Of a stretch of 64,000 bases of DNA, positions 17,046 to 25,698 are shown in pieces (position 1 is the stretch's first letter; the number at the start of each line of letters is the position of its first letter). The stretch covers positions 62,001 through 126,000 of the forward strand of contig CAJXNC010000004.1 in the NCBI GenBank assembly GCA_913056125.1, read 5' to 3'. The stretch is from an uncultured Altererythrobacter sp. Its GTDB lineage: Bacteria > Pseudomonadota > Alphaproteobacteria > Sphingomonadales > Sphingomonadaceae. The position numbers and the translations under genes are program-made. The notes under the pieces were generated by a model, which saw only the letters and a program-made list of their open reading frames with translations, had not been told where the DNA came from and did no database searches.

Positions 17046-18347
17046 ATGATGCTTGGGGAATGGCGACGTCGACTGGTGTTGGCGCTGGGTGCAACCGCTT
17101 TGATGCAGGCCCCCGCGCCTGTCCTCGCACAGCAGGGAGATAGCGCGACGGCAGAAGCCGAATACCAGGCGCTTGCCCCACTGGAAGGTGATCGTGCGGG
17201 CGATCCGGAATACGATTATGCGTTGGCCATCGCAGCGATCGATAGCGGTCGCTATGGCGAGGCGATCATCGCCTTGCAGCGTGTGCTGGCCGTGCAGCCG
17301 GCCAATTCGGCGGCGCGTGCCGAGCTGGCTCGGGCCTATGCCATGGCAGGCGATATCGACACTGCGCGGGACCAGTTCGCCACCGTGGTCGACGATCCCA
17401 CGCTACCCGATCCGGTGCGCCAGCGCTTCACTGGTTTCGTTCGCCAGTTCGACCGCCAGATCTCGGGCGGCGGCAGCGACTTTTCCGGCTTTGTCGATGC
17501 CAGGGTCGGCCATGACAGCAATGTAAACGCCGCGACCGACCTGACACAGGTCACCATCCCGCTCTTTGCCTTCCTGGGTCCGGGCAATCTCGGTCCCGGC
17601 GCGCGTGCGCAGGACGACGAGTTCTGGGAAATCACCGGCGGCTTTTCGGGCGTCACGGCCGTCGGTCGCCAGGATCGGCTGTTCGCCTCGCTGCTGGCCA
17701 ATCACCGCGACAATTTCGACGTATCTGGTTTCGATCAGTCGGGCATTACCGGTACGGTCGGCTATGCCCACAGTTTTGCCAATCGCGACACGCTGTCCTT
17801 TTCGCTGCAGGCCAACCACTTCCTGCTCGATGGCGATGGATATCGCACCAGCCTGGGTGCGGTCGGGCAGTACACCAAGCTGCTTTCCGATGGCCGCGCA
17901 CTGACCTTTTCCGGCCAGTACAGCCGCCTCGACTATGACGGGCAGCCGCTGCTCGATGCCGATCGCTACGCGGTGGCGGTTGGCTTTGTGACGAGCAATC
18001 TTTCTGCCACGCTGCAGGGTGGCAAGGAAGAGACCCGGCGGACTGCGGGAGATGCCTATTCGCACTGGTTTGCCGGGGCCAATATCGGTGCCGAAGTGCC
18101 AATTGCCCAGCGTGTTGCGCTGGTTGGCGGCGTGGCCTTCGACATGCGCCGCTACGATGCCGCCGATGCGCTGTTCCTGACGAAACGGTCGGACGAAAGG
18201 ATCGATGCCCAGATCGGCATCAAGGTCGCCCTGACTGATAATCTCTTCTTCCAGCCACGCGCCACCTACACGCGCAACTGGAGCAATATCCCCCTCTATG
18301 ACTACGACCGCTACACCGTTTCTGCCGGTGTTCGGTTCGAGTTCTGA
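17046..18347 (+). CDS. Slam-like outer-membrane protein: TPR domain plus DUF560-type beta-barrel
   Basis: 433 residues with a signal peptide ending near PAPVLAQQ (about 29). Residues about 45-135 are TPR-like helices (YDYALAIAAIDSGRYGEAI; PANSAARAELARAYAMAGD). From about 145 to the end there are alternating amphipathic strands (FVDARVGHDSNVN, then barrel strands), closing with VSAGVRFEF and a terminal Phe, the classic outer-membrane barrel end. TPR followed by a barrel that opens with a GHDSNVN-like segment is the layout of surface lipoprotein assembly modifiers (Slam, DUF560). These move client proteins to or across the outer membrane. Its stop overlaps the start of the giant FecR-domain gene by one base (TGATG), pointing to that protein as client. 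Assignment is by architecture, not by search. Confidence 0.75.
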   Translation: MMLGEWRRRLVLALGATALMQAPAPVLAQQGDSATAEAEYQALAPLEGDRAGDPEYDYALAIAAIDSGRYGEAIIALQRVLAVQPANSAARAELARAYAMAGDIDTARDQFATVVDDPTLPDPVRQRFTGFVRQFDRQISGGGSDFSGFVDARVGHDSNVNAATDLTQVTIPLFAFLGPGNLGPGARAQDDEFWEITGGFSGVTAVGRQDRLFASLLANHRDNFDVSGFDQSGITGTVGYAHSFANRDTLSFSLQANHFLLDGDGYRTSLGAVGQYTKLLSDGRALTFSGQYSRLDYDGQPLLDADRYAVAVGFVTSNLSATLQGGKEETRRTAGDAYSHWFAGANIGAEVPIAQRVALVGGVAFDMRRYDAADALFLTKRSDERIDAQIGIKVALTDNLFFQPRATYTRNWSNIPLYDYDRYTVSAGVRFEF

Positions 18348-21300
18348 TGCTGTTTGCGAATTCGGGAGCCCATGCCATGACGCGTCAAGCCAATCGCCGC
18401 CCCGCCGCCATCCGTTCCGCAGCGGCCTTGCTCATCTCAGCCTCGACTCTCGCGCTTGCGAGCGTACCGACGCAGGCTGCTGAAGTCCTGTTTGCTGCCA
18501 ATGGGCAGACGCAGATCGCATCCGGCGCGACGGTGACCGCAACGGGCGGCATCATGCAGGTCAAGACCGACGACGGTGCCACCCTGTCCTTCTCCGAAGG
18601 ATCGCAGTTCCGCCTGAACGCGGACGGTTCGGTGGAATTGCTGAGCGGTGAGATAACGGTTGCCGGTTCGGGATCGAGCGACACGCGTGTCATCATGCCC
18701 GATGGCACCAGCGCACGCGTTGTCGGGGGCGGTAGTTCGGCAAGCTTCGCTATCGACGAGCGCGGTCAGGCAAACGGACATACCCTGACCGGTTCGGCAT
18801 GGGTCAGCCGCGGTGGACGCGAACGTGAATTCAGTGCTGGCGAGATGTGGGCATCGTCAGGTCGCAATGCCTTCCGCCAGGTCATGGCGCGTGGATCGCG
18901 CCAAGCTCCGCCGAGCACGGCACGAATTGCCCGCACGCGGGATGAAGGCCCTGTCGGCGCCGCGCAAAATGGCCAGCCCGTATCGCTGGGCGATGCCCTG
19001 GCAGGTGCCGGTGCGTCCTCGGATATCGTGGGCGCCGCGCGCCGCGTTGAGGCCGCCGCGACCAATCCTCAACTCGAAGCCTTTCCCACTGGCGACCTCG
19101 CGCAGCTGGTCGCATTGGCGGCACGGCTGGAGAATCTCTACGGGGGGACGCCGTTCCCCCAAGCGCAAGCGGATATCATCCGCGCCTATCTTGGACACTT
19201 GGCCGATGGCGGTGCAGGGAACAACTTTCTCGCAGCCTATTCGGGTTTCCTGTCCCAATATCTGGACCTGATCCGCGCAGGTGGTCTTCCGGCTGGTTTC
19301 GACGCGGCCAGCCTGGCCGACATCAACGCCTTCCTTGCGTATCAGGGCCGGGTCGGGGCGCTGAGCAATCTCGGCGCACAGGATGCGGCACTGGCGCAGG
19401 CCTATCTCGATTTCCTTCTCGGCGGCGGGAACGGGGCCGATTTCTCGGGTCAGTTTACCGATTTGATCGAAGCCTATTTCTCTTTCGTGCAGGGCGGCGG
19501 CGACCCGGCACAGTTCACCGGCGCGTCGCAGGATGTGCTCGATGCCTACATTGCATTCCTCAACGATAGCGGCTTGATCGAGCAGCTTTCCTCACAATAC
19601 CAGCAGATCCTGCTGGCCTATCTGGCGGGCGGCGGTTTCGACTTTGCCAACCAGTATGGCGCAGCGCTCCAAGCCTATCTGGACTTCCTGCAGCAGGGCA
19701 ATTTGCCGAGCCAGTACGATGGGCTCGATCCCGAGGTCGTCCGGGCCTATCTCGAAACGCTGCAGGCATCCGGCCTGTTTGACCAAATCCTGGGAGCGCA
19801 GGCGCAATTCTTCGCCGATTACCTCGCCTATTTGCAGGGCGGCGGAAATCCCGACGACTATACCGGCCTGCCGACGGTCGACCTGCCGGCCTATGCCGAT
19901 GCGCTCAATGCCTATGCGCAGTTCCTTGCTGCGGGTGGCCTGCCCAGCGATTTCACCGGCGCGGACCTCACCTTATTGGCCAATTATCTGAGGGCGATCT
20001 CCAATAACGGCCAGCTCGACGCGCTGTTAGGCGCCAATGCGGGCCTGTTGCAGGCCTATTTCGACTTCCTTGCCAGCGGCGGCAATGCTGACCTGTTCAC
20101 CGGTTTGCCGGTTTATTCTGACTATCTGGCTGCGATTGCCGACTTCTATGCCTTCATCGCGGCTGGCGGGTTGCCGAGTGCCTATACGCTCTACACGCAG
20201 GAACAGATCGAGGCCTATCTCGCCTCGCTGGCCAATCTCGGACTGCTGAGCGGCAGCTTCGGGGGCGACGAGCTCGACTTCTACGTCAACTACCTCGCCT
20301 ATTTGGGCGGGGGCGGTATTCCCGATCAGTTCGGCGACCTGCCGGTCAATAGCGGGACATTCAACGGTTTCGCGCTTGCGCAAGATGCCAAGGGCTATGT
20401 CATTTCCCAAGGCCTGCAGGGCAGCGTCAATACTGCGGGCGGCAGCATCAATGCCCAGGGCCAGCCTACGGGCTTCAGCTTCCAGCCTGTCGGAGAAATG
20501 GCGCTCGATGTCGGTGGAAATGACGATGGCGTGCTCGGCCGTTTTGCCAGCAACAATTTGCATTACGTGATCATCAACCCGATCATCGGCAGCCTGCCGG
20601 CATCGGGTGCGATCGATTACGAGGTCGTGGCAGCAACGGCTCCCACCTATTCTGACGGAGCCACGGCACCGGGTACATTCGATGCAAACCTGACCATCGG
20701 CTTTGGCACGTCGCTGACCTATGGCATCGATGGCACGATCACTATGCCCGATGCGACCTACACCTTTGCATCGCCAGGCCGCGCAAATGGGGACCTCGTT
20801 GCGCCGCAAGTGGCCGATCCGGGCTTTTTCGTGATCCGGCCGGACTTGTCGCAGACGGGATCCGCCTGCCAGTCGAGCGATTGCTACCTCAACATGTTCG
20901 GTGCCATTGGCGGCAATGCCGGCGAAACGGCCGGCTTCTCCTACCATTCGCGCGACCTGTTCAACCTCGGCCAGCCCTTCGTTCAGGGTTCGGTGATCTT
21001 CGGTGCGACCGGGCCTGTTGCAGGCCCCGATGTCACCAAGCAGAACCAGAGCTTTGCCTTCGCCAATCCGCTGATCGGCGATGACATCCACACCGATATC
21101 GAGGTGACCTACAATTCGGCAGGCATCCCCGTGGGCTACGTCTCGGATGACGTGAATGAAGCCCTGACGTTCGGTGACATGACACTGGCCGATACGGGCA
21201 CGGCCGATGGCGTGCTCGGCTGGGCGCGATGGAATGACGGGACACCCGGCGGAACCTGGTATGGCACGCCCGATCGTTCGGTGGGCGTCGATGGCGGTTA

Positions 21301-22759
21301 TCATGTCATCGCTGGTGACGATCTGAGCAACATGCCTGCGAGCGGCGCTGTGGAATATGACATTGTCGGTTTCACCACCCCCACGCGGCATGACGAGAGC
21401 ACCTCGACCGGTTCGGTCGCTGGCGGCGCGGCCGTGGTCTTCGGGGTAAACCCGGTGGTCGCGCTCGATCTCGAGATTACCAGCGGTATCGATGTCTTCG
21501 ACCTGTTCACCGCAGGCCGGCTGACCGATCCGGCGCAAAGCGGACTGGCAATCAATCAGGATGGCATGTTCCACACGCTTGGTTTCGACCAGTACGGCGT
21601 ATCTTCGAGCAAGAACGCGATCTTCGTGGAATCCGCATCCAGCTTCTGCGATCCCGATTGCACGGGCTTCGTCGAAGGTTTCCTCGCCGGTGACGGTGCC
21701 AGCCACATGGGCTTAGCCTACTCAATTCGCGATAATGCGCCGGGCCAGACCTTTATCGATGGCTCGGTCGCATTTGCGAAGGGCGATCCCATTTCGCTTG
21801 GTGGCGGCAGCATTTCGCTGGGGACGGTCTATTACATCGCCCAGACCCCCAACTCGCTGGGCTTTGGCCTGGGCGGACCGGCCGAGGTCTCGACGCAAGG
21901 CGTGATCTCCAGCTTCAAGTCGACCGGAACATTCGTCTACACGCCGGGCAATGATGCCACGGTCGATGTGGCGGGGCGTTTTGGCGATGATGTGGCCTTC
22001 ACGCGCTACAACCAGACAATCGAGCCTTCGAATTTCTACACCAACGGCACCAATGACTACCTGGTCGGATTGCCGGCCAGCGGCCTTCCCGCAAGCGGGA
22101 CCGTGAATTACCTGCTGCTAGACGGTGCCGCGCCCGCCAATGCGCTCGCCGCCAATGGAGAGCGAGGAAGGTTCGAAGGGTCACTGGCCGTCAGTTTCGG
22201 TGCAAATCCCATGGTCGGGATAAGCATGGATGTCTGGTCCGGCACGCGCGGCTACCATGCGCAGACTGCTGGAGGTTCTGCCGATCCAACAAGTGGCGGC
22301 CTGGCCGTCAATGCCGGAATGGACTTCAATGGCAGTCTGCAGGTTACAGGAACTGCTGGCATTGCCTGCGCAAGCAGTTGTTCCTCGCAGGTCTTCGGTA
22401 GCTTGTATGGCAGTGGTGCGGCCTATGCCGGCTTCACCTACTATGTGAACGACGCCCAGACCAACCAAGCCTATATCACCGGAACGGCAATCTTTGGCAC
22501 GAATGGCACGCAGGTTGACGGGCTGGGCACAATGCCGGGCGGCAATAGCTCGTCGTCCCAAGGCGACGGTTCTGCTGTCTCGCTGGCACGCCAGCCCGAT
22601 TGGGATCGCTGGCAGGTGCCGAGCGAAGGAATAACTGCCGATAACGGCATTGCTGCAATCGCCCCGGGACTCGAGGCCGCGGCAGCGATGGGCATCGAAT
22701 TCTCGCCCGAACAGTTGCAGATGCTCGAAACATATCACGCCTCCCGGTCGGTCCAATAG
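18347..22759 (+). CDS. Giant exported FecR-domain protein with helical repeats and three TbpB-like beta modules
   Basis: 1470 residues. A signal peptide is centred on AALLISASTLALASVPTQA; a second in-frame ATG at 18377 may be the true start. There is no lipobox. Layout: FecR-like domain about 60-175 (TDDGATLSFSEGSQFRLN; IMPDGTSARV); linker; five tandem units of about 68-80 residues at 271-646, built around AYLDFLxxGG and LPSxFTG; then three beta-rich modules at about 680-900, 902-1167 and 1168-1390. Each module has LPASG-type VxY, a GxFxxxLxVxFG strand, a close cysteine pair (CQSSDC, CDPDC, CASSC) and a GxLxGxGAxxxGxxY motif like the TbpB barrel. It is translationally coupled to the Slam-like gene and ended by a strong terminator. 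It is probably a surface or secreted client of that protein; its ligand is unknown. Confidence 0.85.
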   Translation: MLFANSGAHAMTRQANRRPAAIRSAAALLISASTLALASVPTQAAEVLFAANGQTQIASGATVTATGGIMQVKTDDGATLSFSEGSQFRLNADGSVELLSGEITVAGSGSSDTRVIMPDGTSARVVGGGSSASFAIDERGQANGHTLTGSAWVSRGGREREFSAGEMWASSGRNAFRQVMARGSRQAPPSTARIARTRDEGPVGAAQNGQPVSLGDALAGAGASSDIVGAARRVEAAATNPQLEAFPTGDLAQLVALAARLENLYGGTPFPQAQADIIRAYLGHLADGGAGNNFLAAYSGFLSQYLDLIRAGGLPAGFDAASLADINAFLAYQGRVGALSNLGAQDAALAQAYLDFLLGGGNGADFSGQFTDLIEAYFSFVQGGGDPAQFTGASQDVLDAYIAFLNDSGLIEQLSSQYQQILLAYLAGGGFDFANQYGAALQAYLDFLQQGNLPSQYDGLDPEVVRAYLETLQASGLFDQILGAQAQFFADYLAYLQGGGNPDDYTGLPTVDLPAYADALNAYAQFLAAGGLPSDFTGADLTLLANYLRAISNNGQLDALLGANAGLLQAYFDFLASGGNADLFTGLPVYSDYLAAIADFYAFIAAGGLPSAYTLYTQEQIEAYLASLANLGLLSGSFGGDELDFYVNYLAYLGGGGIPDQFGDLPVNSGTFNGFALAQDAKGYVISQGLQGSVNTAGGSINAQGQPTGFSFQPVGEMALDVGGNDDGVLGRFASNNLHYVIINPIIGSLPASGAIDYEVVAATAPTYSDGATAPGTFDANLTIGFGTSLTYGIDGTITMPDATYTFASPGRANGDLVAPQVADPGFFVIRPDLSQTGSACQSSDCYLNMFGAIGGNAGETAGFSYHSRDLFNLGQPFVQGSVIFGATGPVAGPDVTKQNQSFAFANPLIGDDIHTDIEVTYNSAGIPVGYVSDDVNEALTFGDMTLADTGTADGVLGWARWNDGTPGGTWYGTPDRSVGVDGGYHVIAGDDLSNMPASGAVEYDIVGFTTPTRHDESTSTGSVAGGAAVVFGVNPVVALDLEITSGIDVFDLFTAGRLTDPAQSGLAINQDGMFHTLGFDQYGVSSSKNAIFVESASSFCDPDCTGFVEGFLAGDGASHMGLAYSIRDNAPGQTFIDGSVAFAKGDPISLGGGSISLGTVYYIAQTPNSLGFGLGGPAEVSTQGVISSFKSTGTFVYTPGNDATVDVAGRFGDDVAFTRYNQTIEPSNFYTNGTNDYLVGLPASGLPASGTVNYLLLDGAAPANALAANGERGRFEGSLAVSFGANPMVGISMDVWSGTRGYHAQTAGGSADPTSGGLAVNAGMDFNGSLQVTGTAGIACASSCSSQVFGSLYGSGAAYAGFTYYVNDAQTNQAYITGTAIFGTNGTQVDGLGTMPGGNSSSSQGDGSAVSLARQPDWDRWQVPSEGITADNGIAAIAPGLEAAAAMGIEFSPEQLQMLETYHASRSVQ
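19157..20340 (+). repeat. Five tandem coding repeats (about 68-80 residues) inside the giant FecR-domain protein
   Basis: Units begin near residues 271, 351, 423, 491 and 569, with a partial sixth at about 647. Each opens with AYL/YLAYL plus a Gly-Gly-Gly turn, then a helix, an AGGLPSxFTG-like turn, another helix and an LxxSGLxxxL segment. Conservation is at protein level and degenerate at DNA level, so these are old duplications rather than unstable satellite repeats. Confidence 0.75.
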
Positions 22760-22810
22760 GGCCGTCCGGGAGCGCTCCGGGCCTCACTTGGGGAACGCGA
22801 CCCGGAAGAG

Positions 22811-22843
22811 AGCCGGTCCGGCATTGATGCCGGGCCGGCTTTT
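22811..22843 (+). terminator. Rho-independent terminator after the giant surface protein gene
   Basis: A 13-pair stem (22811-22823 with 22828-22840, one G-T pair) with a TTGA loop, followed by a TTTT run. It ends the Slam/FecR unit 50 bases after the stop codon. Confidence 0.88.
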
Positions 22844-22873: not shown

Positions 22874-23443
22874 TCAGCGGAAGACGAGATAGACGCTCGC
22901 TTGGTCGCTGCTTCGGTTTTCCAGCTCGATCGAGAAACGCTCGGTGAAGATGGGCAGCCAGCGGCAATCGGCGCGCGGGGCAAGCTGTTTGTCGCAGACC
23001 GCTTCGGCGCGAGGATTGGCGACTTTCAGTGCTACCTCGCCGCCATTCGTCTGGGCGACCAGTTCGGCACGCTCTCCGGCATAGAAGATCTGTTCGATGC
23101 GCATGCTCTCGCCAGGAGGCAGCTGGGCGCGGCGATAGGCGGGGCCGAGCGTGCGTCCGCGATAGACCTGTGTCGAGCCCTTTGGCAGCGCACTGCGCCA
23201 TTCGGCCAGCGGATCGTCATCGCTGTCTTCGAACACGGCAACCTGCATGGCATCGAGCCGTTCGACCAGCGGCATGCGCGCCTCGTCGCTATCGGCCTGT
23301 TCGGCAGCGACCAGCAAGGCCGCTGCATCTGCCAGCAGGTCTCCGCTCGGCTCGGGCATGGCGATGCTTGCAGGTCCGGCAGTGGTGCAGGCGGCAAGGC
23401 TTGCCAGCAGCGAGGGCACAAGGGTGGTGCGCGTGTTTTTCAT
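22874..23443 (-). CDS. Lipoprotein of unknown function, linked to a two-component system
   Basis: ATG at 23443 gives 189 residues with a lipoprotein signal: MKNTRTTLVPSLLASLAACTT, lipobox LAAC. The mature part has a helical segment (LLADAAALLVAAEQADSDEA) and a beta-rich C-terminal part (GEVALKVANPRAEAVCDKQL; WLPIFTERFSIELENRS). It contains two more cysteines (VCDKQLAPRADC) that could form a disulfide. No family recognised. Its start overlaps the histidine kinase stop by four bases (ATGA), so the three genes form an operon and the lipoprotein may be an accessory envelope component of that system. Confidence 0.75.
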   Translation of the reverse strand: MKNTRTTLVPSLLASLAACTTAGPASIAMPEPSGDLLADAAALLVAAEQADSDEARMPLVERLDAMQVAVFEDSDDDPLAEWRSALPKGSTQVYRGRTLGPAYRRAQLPPGESMRIEQIFYAGERAELVAQTNGGEVALKVANPRAEAVCDKQLAPRADCRWLPIFTERFSIELENRSSDQASVYLVFR

Positions 23444-24864
23444 GATGCTGCCTCCGTCGTGCCCCACATGGCATGCGGCTTGATCACGAAGCGTGCCCCC
23501 TTGTCCGTATCGGCCAGGCCGATGCGCAATCCGTGTCGTAGCGCTATGGCGCGAGCAAGTGCCAGGCCGAGACCATGGCTGGTCTTTCCCTTGACGGCGC
23601 GCCCTGTCCGGAAACGATCAAAAACGAGAGGCCGCAGGGCAGGTTCGATGCCGGGTCCATTGTCGCTGACCTGGATCACCGGCCCTTTGGCGACCGAGAG
23701 CTTGATGGTGCCGCCCTCGGGCACGTATTTCAGCGCATTGTCGAGCAGGTTGGAGATGAGCCGCACCAATTGCATGCGCTCACCCATAATATGCACATCG
23801 GGGGTAATGAAACTTTCCAGTGCAATTCCTGCTTCCTCGGCACTGCCCGAGTAGAGTTCCACGAGATCTGCGGCGAGATCGGAAAGGTCGACATCCTCAA
23901 GCCCGGTCAGGTCGCCGACGCGGCCCTCGCTGGCGGCGATATCGAGCAGCGAATCGAGCATGGCGACTACCGAGCGGATCTCCTGCCGGCCCTTGTCGAT
24001 CGCGCTCATGTCCGCATCGGGCGGCAGGCTGCGAAGGGCATCGACCAGGCGATGATCGAGATGGGTCAAAGGCGTACGGATTTCATGCGCGATGTGATCG
24101 GACATGTGGCGGTGCGTGCGCGCAAGGCTGGCGGCGCGTCCGATTGCCCTTGTGCTGAGTTCTGACAATTCGCCGATTTCGTCGTCATGAGTGTCGACCA
24201 ACGGCGATACGTCTTTACCGCTTTCAGCTGCGCGAAAACCCTCGGCAATCACTTCGATCCGGTCGCGCAGGCGATGTGCCGCAGTCCTGCCGATCAGCCA
24301 CAGTGCCACGACGATGGCGATGGCGGCGCCCAGGAAAGTCAGGACCAGCCGGTAATAGGCCTGGATGTCGCGTTCGTAGGTGCGGGCCACCAGCAGGTCG
24401 AGATCGGGTGAAATGCGCGTCGCGCGGGCAAAGACCGGCGTGCCGTCCGCCAGTTGCAGGAAACCCTCTTCGGACAGGCTGGCTCCCAGTTCCGGCCAGG
24501 CGTCGATATTTCCGGCGACGAATTCGCCACCGGGTCGCACAAGCATGTAGCGCGACTGGCGTCCTTCCAGGCTGACCAGGATCGATCGATCCTCGAGCCG
24601 TTCGAGCAGTTCTTCTTCGCCGCCGCTGGCATATATGTCGACGAGACCGGCAATGTCCGTGTCGACAGTTGCCGAAAGCGAGCGCTCGGCCGAGCGCCAG
24701 TTCTCCCACAGCAGCACCGAAGCAAGCACGGCCAATGCGACAAGGGCGAAGACGATCGCACCGCGCACCAGCTTGTTGAAGATCGAGCTTCCAGCACGCG
24801 CCACTTCACTGCCCGGTGCATAAGCGCCGTGCTCCGGGTCAACATAGGTTTCTGGTTCACTCAC
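23440..24864 (-). CDS. Membrane sensor histidine kinase
   Basis: 474 residues from a GTG start. Two membrane segments (about 36-52 and 171-191) flank a periplasmic sensor domain of about 115 residues. A HAMP-like linker follows (DRIEVIAEGFRAAESGKDV), then HisKA with the phospho-acceptor motif HIAHEIRTPL, then HATPase with N box LISNLLDNALKY, G1 VSDNGPGIEP and G2 SHGLGLALARAI. It overlaps the response regulator upstream by eight bases and the lipoprotein downstream by four. The stimulus is unknown. Confidence 0.93.
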   Translation of the reverse strand: MSEPETYVDPEHGAYAPGSEVARAGSSIFNKLVRGAIVFALVALAVLASVLLWENWRSAERSLSATVDTDIAGLVDIYASGGEEELLERLEDRSILVSLEGRQSRYMLVRPGGEFVAGNIDAWPELGASLSEEGFLQLADGTPVFARATRISPDLDLLVARTYERDIQAYYRLVLTFLGAAIAIVVALWLIGRTAAHRLRDRIEVIAEGFRAAESGKDVSPLVDTHDDEIGELSELSTRAIGRAASLARTHRHMSDHIAHEIRTPLTHLDHRLVDALRSLPPDADMSAIDKGRQEIRSVVAMLDSLLDIAASEGRVGDLTGLEDVDLSDLAADLVELYSGSAEEAGIALESFITPDVHIMGERMQLVRLISNLLDNALKYVPEGGTIKLSVAKGPVIQVSDNGPGIEPALRPLVFDRFRTGRAVKGKTSHGLGLALARAIALRHGLRIGLADTDKGARFVIKPHAMWGTTEAAS

Positions 24865-25534
24865 CGCGCGTCAGCCGGTAGCCGGACCCCCAGATCGTCT
24901 CTAGCGCGGGCCTGTCGAAACCGTTCTCGAGCTTACGCCGCAGGCGGCCGATATTGACGTCCACGACATTGGTCTGGGGATCGAAGTTCATCTTCCACAC
25001 GTCGCGCAGAAGCATATCGCGCGTCACCACTTCGCCGGCATTTTCCATGAAGTAGCGAAAAAGCTCGAACTCCTTGGGGCTGAGCGGGATGTGGACGTTG
25101 CGGCGGAAGGCGGTACGCGCCTTCACATGGCATTCGAACTGGCCATAGATGATAATCGCGGAATGGGTTCGCCCTTCTGCGCGGCGCACCAGCGCTTTCA
25201 AGCGGGCGAGCAGTTCGTCGGGCTCGTATGGCTTGCCGAGATAGTCGTCGACCCCGGCCTCCAGTCCCTCCACCCGGTTGGAGGACCGGCCCAGCGCGGA
25301 GAGCATAAGCACGGGGGCATCGACCCCGCTCTCGCGCAGGCGCTCGACGATCTGCAAACCGTCCATGTCGGGCAGCATGCGATCGAGGATGATGGTGTCG
25401 AAAGGTTCGAGCGCAGCGCGGCGCAGTCCGTCGGCGCCCTGTATCTCCCACACGACCTGATGCCCCTCGCGCGCAAGCAGCGAAGTCAGGTCGGCCGCAG
25501 CATCGGCATTGTCCTCGATATAGAGCAGCTTCAA
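24857..25534 (-). CDS. OmpR-family response regulator
   Basis: TTG at 25534 is the chosen start because the receiver domain begins immediately (KLLYIEDNADAAADL); upstream in-frame sequence is not receiver-like. Phospho-acceptor Asp51 lies in IILDRMLPDMDG, switch Ser79 in VLMLSALG and Lys101 in GKPYEPDELLARL. The C-terminal winged helix (LSPKEFELFRYFMENAGEVV; VVDVNIGRLRRKLE) places it in the OmpR/PhoB class. It is first gene of the RR-HK-lipoprotein operon. The 164-base gap to the divergent TonB-like gene holds the promoter. Confidence 0.92.
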   Translation of the reverse strand: MKLLYIEDNADAAADLTSLLAREGHQVVWEIQGADGLRRAALEPFDTIILDRMLPDMDGLQIVERLRESGVDAPVLMLSALGRSSNRVEGLEAGVDDYLGKPYEPDELLARLKALVRRAEGRTHSAIIIYGQFECHVKARTAFRRNVHIPLSPKEFELFRYFMENAGEVVTRDMLLRDVWKMNFDPQTNVVDVNIGRLRRKLENGFDRPALETIWGSGYRLTRGE

Positions 25535-25698
25535 GACTGGTCCCCCGAACGCGTCACCGGACGAACCTATATCTCGCAGCGCCTGTCGCCAAAAGCGCCG
25601 CAAACGGAATGCCCGAGAATCTCATAGGGGATGGGGACAATGGGTTGCAGGAAACCGTCCGTTGGACTCATGACGAATGCTGTTAGAACTGGCTGAAG

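Follow-up and report, generated by a model that had tools for sequence, protein, structure and literature searches.

What do two adjoining genes at positions 17,046 to 22,759 of a 64,000-nucleotide stretch of DNA from an uncultured Altererythrobacter sp. (the window) encode, and does the product of one serve the product of the other? The original prediction proposed a Slam-type translocon, here P0001, coupled to a giant client, P0002. This proposal is supported: the barrel protein does not turn out to be an unrelated porin, and the two genes co-occur in other genomes. The locus is likely to represent a type XI secretion (Slam) pair of a separate lineage, in which P0001 acts as the translocon and P0002 as its unlipidated, FecR-headed cargo.

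P0001 begins with a signal peptide, judged by eye to cover about residues 1-28, continues with tetratricopeptide repeats (TPR_19 at 35.9 bits, cut-off 25) and ends in ...RFEF, in agreement with the predicted architecture of TPRs and a barrel ending in Phe and with the N-terminal TPR and Sec signal of Slam/DUF560 proteins. Among 30 aligned family members, the window's included, SlipAM (PF04575) is found in 23 (best 2.3e-11) and TPR_Slam in 29 (E <= 0.1), and several relatives carry DUF560 names at NCBI or UniRef. When the family profile was compared by hhalign with eight other sphingomonad proteins, all of which match SlipAM (best 5.1e-34), 393 columns aligned with a probability of 100 (E 1.3e-45). 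A PF04575 scan of the window's own genome at E <= 0.1 returned two genes, P0001 at 17.8 bits, below the cut-off of 22, and a gene of contig C9 at 41.4 bits. On account of these family matches, the profile alignment and the genome scan, the identification of P0001 as a divergent Slam is supported at the level of sequence. P0001 itself stays below the thresholds, with 18.9 bits for SlipAM and 23.4 bits for TPR_Slam (cut-off 35.2), and the SlipAM score counts against this identification. In a tree of 87 sequences, computation separates 79 relatives of P0001 (window included), from Sphingomonadales as well as Beta- and Gammaproteobacteria, from the 8 other DUF560 proteins with 100/100 support; the program's warning that long branches meet at this split tells against the separation.

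P0002 had been described as a client without a lipobox, with a FecR-like N-terminal domain, helical repeats and three TbpB-like barrels, and all four features hold. Neither inspection by eye nor a motif search shows a lipobox in its signal peptide; computed over relatives, a lipobox-like motif occurs in none of the 22 cargos from whole genomes and is absent from 63 of the 64 cargos of the other set. Structural computation places a FecR-fold domain at the N-terminus, with PupR as the matching fold. The Pfam FecR model (PF04773) gives 15.9 bits on P0002, under its cut-off of 24, which was passed by all ten non-sphingomonad relatives submitted. Six helical repeats follow, and the window cargo lacks a Pro/Thr run as long as 14 residues. 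Of 65 cargos with lobes, counting that of the window, 29 have a C-terminal tail of at least 40 residues. Tails of 40-122 residues beyond the last lobe (e.g. at loci L089, L092 and L100) often contain a WxRW stretch and have endings such as LGGMITF.

The three lobes of P0002 are homologous (E 1.1e-49, 4.3e-58 and 1.5e-61 for lobes 1 to 3, with a profile seeded from the third). The best fold matches of the lobe, about 240 residues long, are hemophilin HphA (7re4, 8gm3) and the TbpB C-lobe (5kkx), so that structural computation assigns the TbpB/hemophilin fold directly to lobe 3 and by homology to lobes 1 and 2; the lobe thus has the handle and 8-stranded barrel of TbpB-type cargo. Across the family, 148 of 180 lobes have, in their later part, two Cys residues separated by 2-5 others. 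Several sequence-based results weigh against the assignment. Pfam TbpB_B_D matches 0 of 51 lobes, contrary to the expectation that a hidden Markov model search would recognise TbpBBD in the cargo, and neither this model nor FHBP_C matches whole P0002. NCBIfam slam_lipo has hits in 7 of 51 lobes (best E 3.2e-4) and gives 20.2 bits on the whole cargo against a cut-off of 80, a sequence-profile search of solved structures returned no TbpB relative, and hhalign of the lobes with other sphingomonad cargo barrels gave probability 2, with a three-sequence profile. Because these searches are weak or empty, the tie between the lobes and TbpB holds at fold level and descent is not proven.

The two genes are linked. 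Among 397 genomes of the family, the cargo occurs in 23, and the channel gene lies immediately upstream in 22 of these, contrary to the possibility that the genes would not co-occur in a survey across Sphingomonadales; in the remaining genome (G427), whose assembly is 78% complete, there is only a 291-residue open frame. Across 196 genomes of the order, the cargo was detected in 7 and a channel match below E 1e-50 in the same 7, with only a distant channel match in 24 others. For named genomes, where the loci are those of the 80 best among 168 relatives and 6 of the 80 end at a contig edge, a FecR-type frame (E < 1e-3) is next downstream of the channel gene in 74 of 74 loci, with lobes in 64, "next downstream" being the longest same-strand open reading frame starting near the channel's stop. 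This count is partly circular, as many of these loci also went into the FecR profile, and its weight is lessened accordingly. P0001 thus has the adjacent gene for a cargo with a TbpB-like barrel that is characteristic of Slam/DUF560 proteins. Separately, genome G288 (L046, G288:C1:1798829-1799308) contains a 163-residue channel match, 72% identical, without an adjoining cargo, which looks like a remnant. The cargo frames of L110 and L139, with 297 and 289 residues against about 800 and 980-1240 in close relatives, are likely frameshifted or broken copies.

The cargo also varies in a modular manner. The 55 sphingomonad cargos with lobes range from 803 to 2228 residues and carry 1-5 lobes and 0-12 helical repeats, while the 9 non-sphingomonad ones contain no helical repeats and have a single lobe in eight cases. 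A Pro/Thr run of at least 14 is present in 11 of 13 cargos with under three helical repeats versus 1 of 42 with three or more, so that the two elements look like interchangeable spacers. Computation therefore describes the cargo as one FecR cap, a variable spacer and one to five lobes.

Both open reading frames lie at the predicted coordinates (Table 1), and the junction between them has to be revised. The proposed 1-base overlap conflicts with an in-frame ATG at 18377 that has GGGAG 8 nt upstream, with a database copy of the cargo (P0123) of 1460 residues, and with cargo starts 9-32 nt beyond the channel gene's stop in many relatives, where the script picks the earliest start near the stop and some rows consequently show overlaps. 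On these grounds the junction is probably a 29-nt gap; the length of 1470 residues is correct for the open frame, and the probable protein has about 1460. The proposal of a single terminator for both genes agrees with a strong hairpin and U run downstream (a 66-nt stretch folding at dG -37.2, z -5.5, equalled by none of 200 shuffled versions), which is missing from the list of a consensus terminator scan.

Table 1. Features of the P0001-P0002 locus and its conserved neighbours (window coordinates)
Feature	Position	Strand	Remarks
P0001, divergent Slam/DUF560 (type XI secretion) outer-membrane protein (supported by sequence)	17046..18347	+	433 aa; signal peptide, TPRs, predicted C-terminal beta-barrel ending in Phe
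TPR region of P0001, residues 57-116	17214..17393	+	Pfam TPR_19 9.3e-9; TPR_Slam 8.2e-5, below its cut-off
GGGAG, likely ribosome-binding site of cargo gene	18364..18368	+	sequence; agrees with 1460-aa database copy P0123
P0002, giant non-lipidated putative cargo	18377..22759	+	~1460 aa; original prediction: start 18347, 1470 aa
FecR/PupR-fold domain of P0002, residues ~58-189	18518..18913	+	fold by structure
Six helical repeats of P0002, residues 245-666, presumed stalk	19079..20344	+	profile of 69 positions
Lobe 1 of P0002, residues 680-897	20384..21037	+	fold by homology to lobe 3; Cys pair 841/846
Lobe 2 of P0002, residues 901-1155	21047..21811	+	fold by homology to lobe 3; Cys pair 1101/1105
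Lobe 3 of P0002, residues 1160-1396	21824..22534	+	TbpB/hemophilin fold; Cys pair 1341/1345
C-terminal tail of P0002, 74 aa beyond last lobe	22535..22756	+	in some relatives only
Terminator-like hairpin between convergent gene groups	22810..22841	.	fold energy
X, putative lipoprotein (SLAACTT, by eye)	22874..23467	-	197 aa; no Pfam match; conserved neighbour
Histidine kinase, conserved neighbour	23440..24864	-	HATPase_c 2.3e-21; by eye, two hydrophobic stretches that flank a segment presumed to be extracytoplasmic
OmpR-type response regulator, conserved neighbour	24857..25603	-	Response_reg 2.6e-22; Trans_reg_C 8.7e-26

How such a pair would operate can be proposed by analogy. P0002 would leave the cytoplasm by Sec, without lipidation, be kept unfolded, and cross the outer membrane through P0001, steered by its TbpB/hemophilin-like lobes; the Sec exit, the unfolded state and the passage are proposed because Slam1 moves unfolded TbpB through proteoliposomes with the aid of Skp, as reported in PMC9090332. 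By this analogy, export of P0002 through P0001 is very likely. Outside the cell, the lobes may serve as a multivalent head for ligand binding or adhesion, carried on a long spacer that consists of helical repeats here and of a run rich in Pro and Thr in other members. With the lipid anchor missing, the FecR-fold domain at the N-terminus would take over and hold P0002 to the cell, acting at the surface or as a plug in the periplasm; such a retention role is favoured, at modest odds.

Display at the surface appears somewhat more probable than release, in which the whole cargo, FecR domain included, would be exported as a soluble multivalent binder. Such release is rather unlikely, given that the FecR fold of PupR is periplasmic and that long spacers would suit a tethered head more than a free one, although the missing lipobox would fit it. 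Release would likewise agree with PMC12282271, in which soluble haemophilin-like proteins form a large group of predicted cargo and the verified cargo includes haemophores.

Another rival reading concerns the ligand of the lobes. Iron or haem scavenging of the hemophilin/TbpB type, with the lobes binding haem or a metal carrier and passing it to a TonB-dependent receptor, would agree with a lobe fold closest to HphA and TbpB, with the action of FecR folds in iron signalling (e.g. PupR), and with lobe alignment position 79, where 72% of 123 lobes have His, though the window's third lobe has Asp. However, fHbp shares the TbpB-type fold and does not bind iron. Pfam matches were obtained for 5 of the 10 flanking open reading frames scanned (RsmB, MsrA and HPPK upstream; the histidine kinase and response regulator downstream), and none of the ten matched a TonB receptor or haem enzyme; among the 14 largest neighbour clusters listed, one, with 4 loci, looks TonB-receptor-like (by eye). 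As the flanking frames scanned in the window include no match to a TonB receptor, scavenging is treated as a rival rather than the default, and its probability is low.

The genes beyond the hairpin bear on a further, less probable role. X, the kinase and the regulator run convergently toward the cargo in the window. In sphingomonad loci with 3 kb beyond the cargo (n = 51), a close regulator and kinase (regulator at least 55% identical and kinase E under 1e-70, anywhere in the locus) occur in 40, X in 35 and S3 in 27, and the 8 loci around other DUF560 genes yield no match to any of the four. S3 is an exported protein of about 296 residues with a weak SH3_3 end that follows the cargo in many relatives (L094 16204-17091, L120 15136-16032); it is not beside the window's pair, and its relative in the same genome is on another contig (G000:C11:85264-86100). 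A kinase match below 1e-60 was found in 52 of 397 genomes, comprising 14 of 22 system-bearing genomes versus 38 of 375 others (p 1.2e-8, kinship ignored), and in 13 of those 14 it lies within 5.3 kb of the pair (224 kb away in the other). Given these proportions, the kinase is linked to the pair, yet not exclusive to it. This enrichment and proximity, the regulator and kinase in most of the 51 loci and in none of the 8, and the FecR fold were counted in favour of a new form of cell-surface signalling, in which the FecR fold would be periplasmic and the lobes outside, and external binding or stalled Slam export would be read by the histidine kinase and lipoprotein X. If true, a secreted cargo would take the place of the TonB-dependent receptor as surface sensor. 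This idea is improbable, since 38 of the 52 kinase-bearing genomes lack the pair, 11 of the 51 loci lack a close kinase and regulator, and close matches to both are found in 0 of 16 non-sphingomonad loci.

The weakest alternative, that P0001 is an ordinary TPR-porin, P0002 is periplasmic or otherwise secreted and their pairing is incidental, draws on the DUF2860 barrel model over the last ~100 residues of P0001 (26.2 bits, cut-off 22.9), which also counts against a Slam identity and by itself would leave that of the barrel undecided, and on OMP_b-brl (25.0 bits, where 28.7 would be required), but it is highly implausible in view of the linkage, the alignment to SlipAM-matching proteins, the SlipAM matches within the family and the fold that the lobes share with Slam clients.

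The P0001-P0002 pair therefore represents, as our favoured reading, a lineage seen mainly in sphingomonads in the present data, with a clearly predicted cargo. According to PMC12282271, the seven type XI secretion proteins verified earlier all come from the animal-associated cluster 1, and that 2025 cargo study covers DUF560 clusters 1 and 3; subcluster 1C consists largely of environmental Sphingomonadaceae, as stated in PMC8406197. The claim that no system of this composition had been described stands in part: the combination of FecR head, long stalk and three TbpB-like lobes was not met in the open-access literature searched, nor was FecR joined to DUF560 or TbpBBD, and the word "FecR" is absent from the main texts of PMC12282271 and PMC8406197, but for Sphingomonas, multi-lobed cargo of type XI secretion systems (T11SS) has already been predicted in print (PMC12282271, main text). 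The pair raises questions about Slam handling of large multi-lobed cargo, the retention of an unlipidated client and a role of FecR outside anti-sigma signalling. Since the lobes keep the fold while sequence searches detect no TbpB similarity, sequence-based cargo surveys could miss this class.

Compared with known Slam/type XI systems such as Slam1-TbpB (PMC9090332), the pair shares TPRs with a predicted C-terminal barrel and an adjoining cargo gene with lobes of the TbpB/hemophilin fold. It differs in that P0001 scores below the Slam-model cut-off, in that its clade stands apart from the eight other sphingomonad DUF560 proteins, and in that the window cargo is FecR-headed and non-lipidated; the lipobox, a trait of surface lipoproteins only among TbpB-type cargo, is absent from P0002, and soluble T11SS cargo also exists (PMC12282271, main text). 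The "Sphingomonas surface proteins", a predicted T11SS cargo class of 18 lipoproteins and 12 soluble members with Pro-Thr repeats and two to three handle-barrel pairs, are similar in their sphingomonad hosts, multiple TbpB-like lobes and partial solubility, and Pro/Thr spacers occur in part of the P0002 family. Compared with the main-text description of that class, P0002 has helical repeats and a FecR fold, and it lacks N-terminal Pro-Thr repeats, a long Pro/Thr run and a TbpB_B_D match. The second DUF560 gene of the window's genome (L050, G000:C9), which exceeds the Slam cut-off, is followed by a 625-residue cargo with a lipobox, Pro-Thr repeats and TbpB_B_D at 8e-14, whose sequence fits that class better than the window cargo does; the genome hence carries one known-type system plus the P0001-P0002 pair. 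HphA and TbpB share the handle and barrel of the P0002 lobe, whereas the P0002 family has its lobes in tandem, mostly with the Cys pair, and sequence similarity was not detected. Finally, the FecR/PupR fold of P0002 is that of anti-sigma regulators (6ovk, 4m0n). In these regulators, a cytoplasmic anti-sigma domain and a membrane helix precede the FecR domain. There is no room for either in P0002, because its FecR domain starts about 13 residues beyond the signal peptide (by eye); in their place P0002 has that signal peptide, and the stalk and lobes come after the FecR domain.
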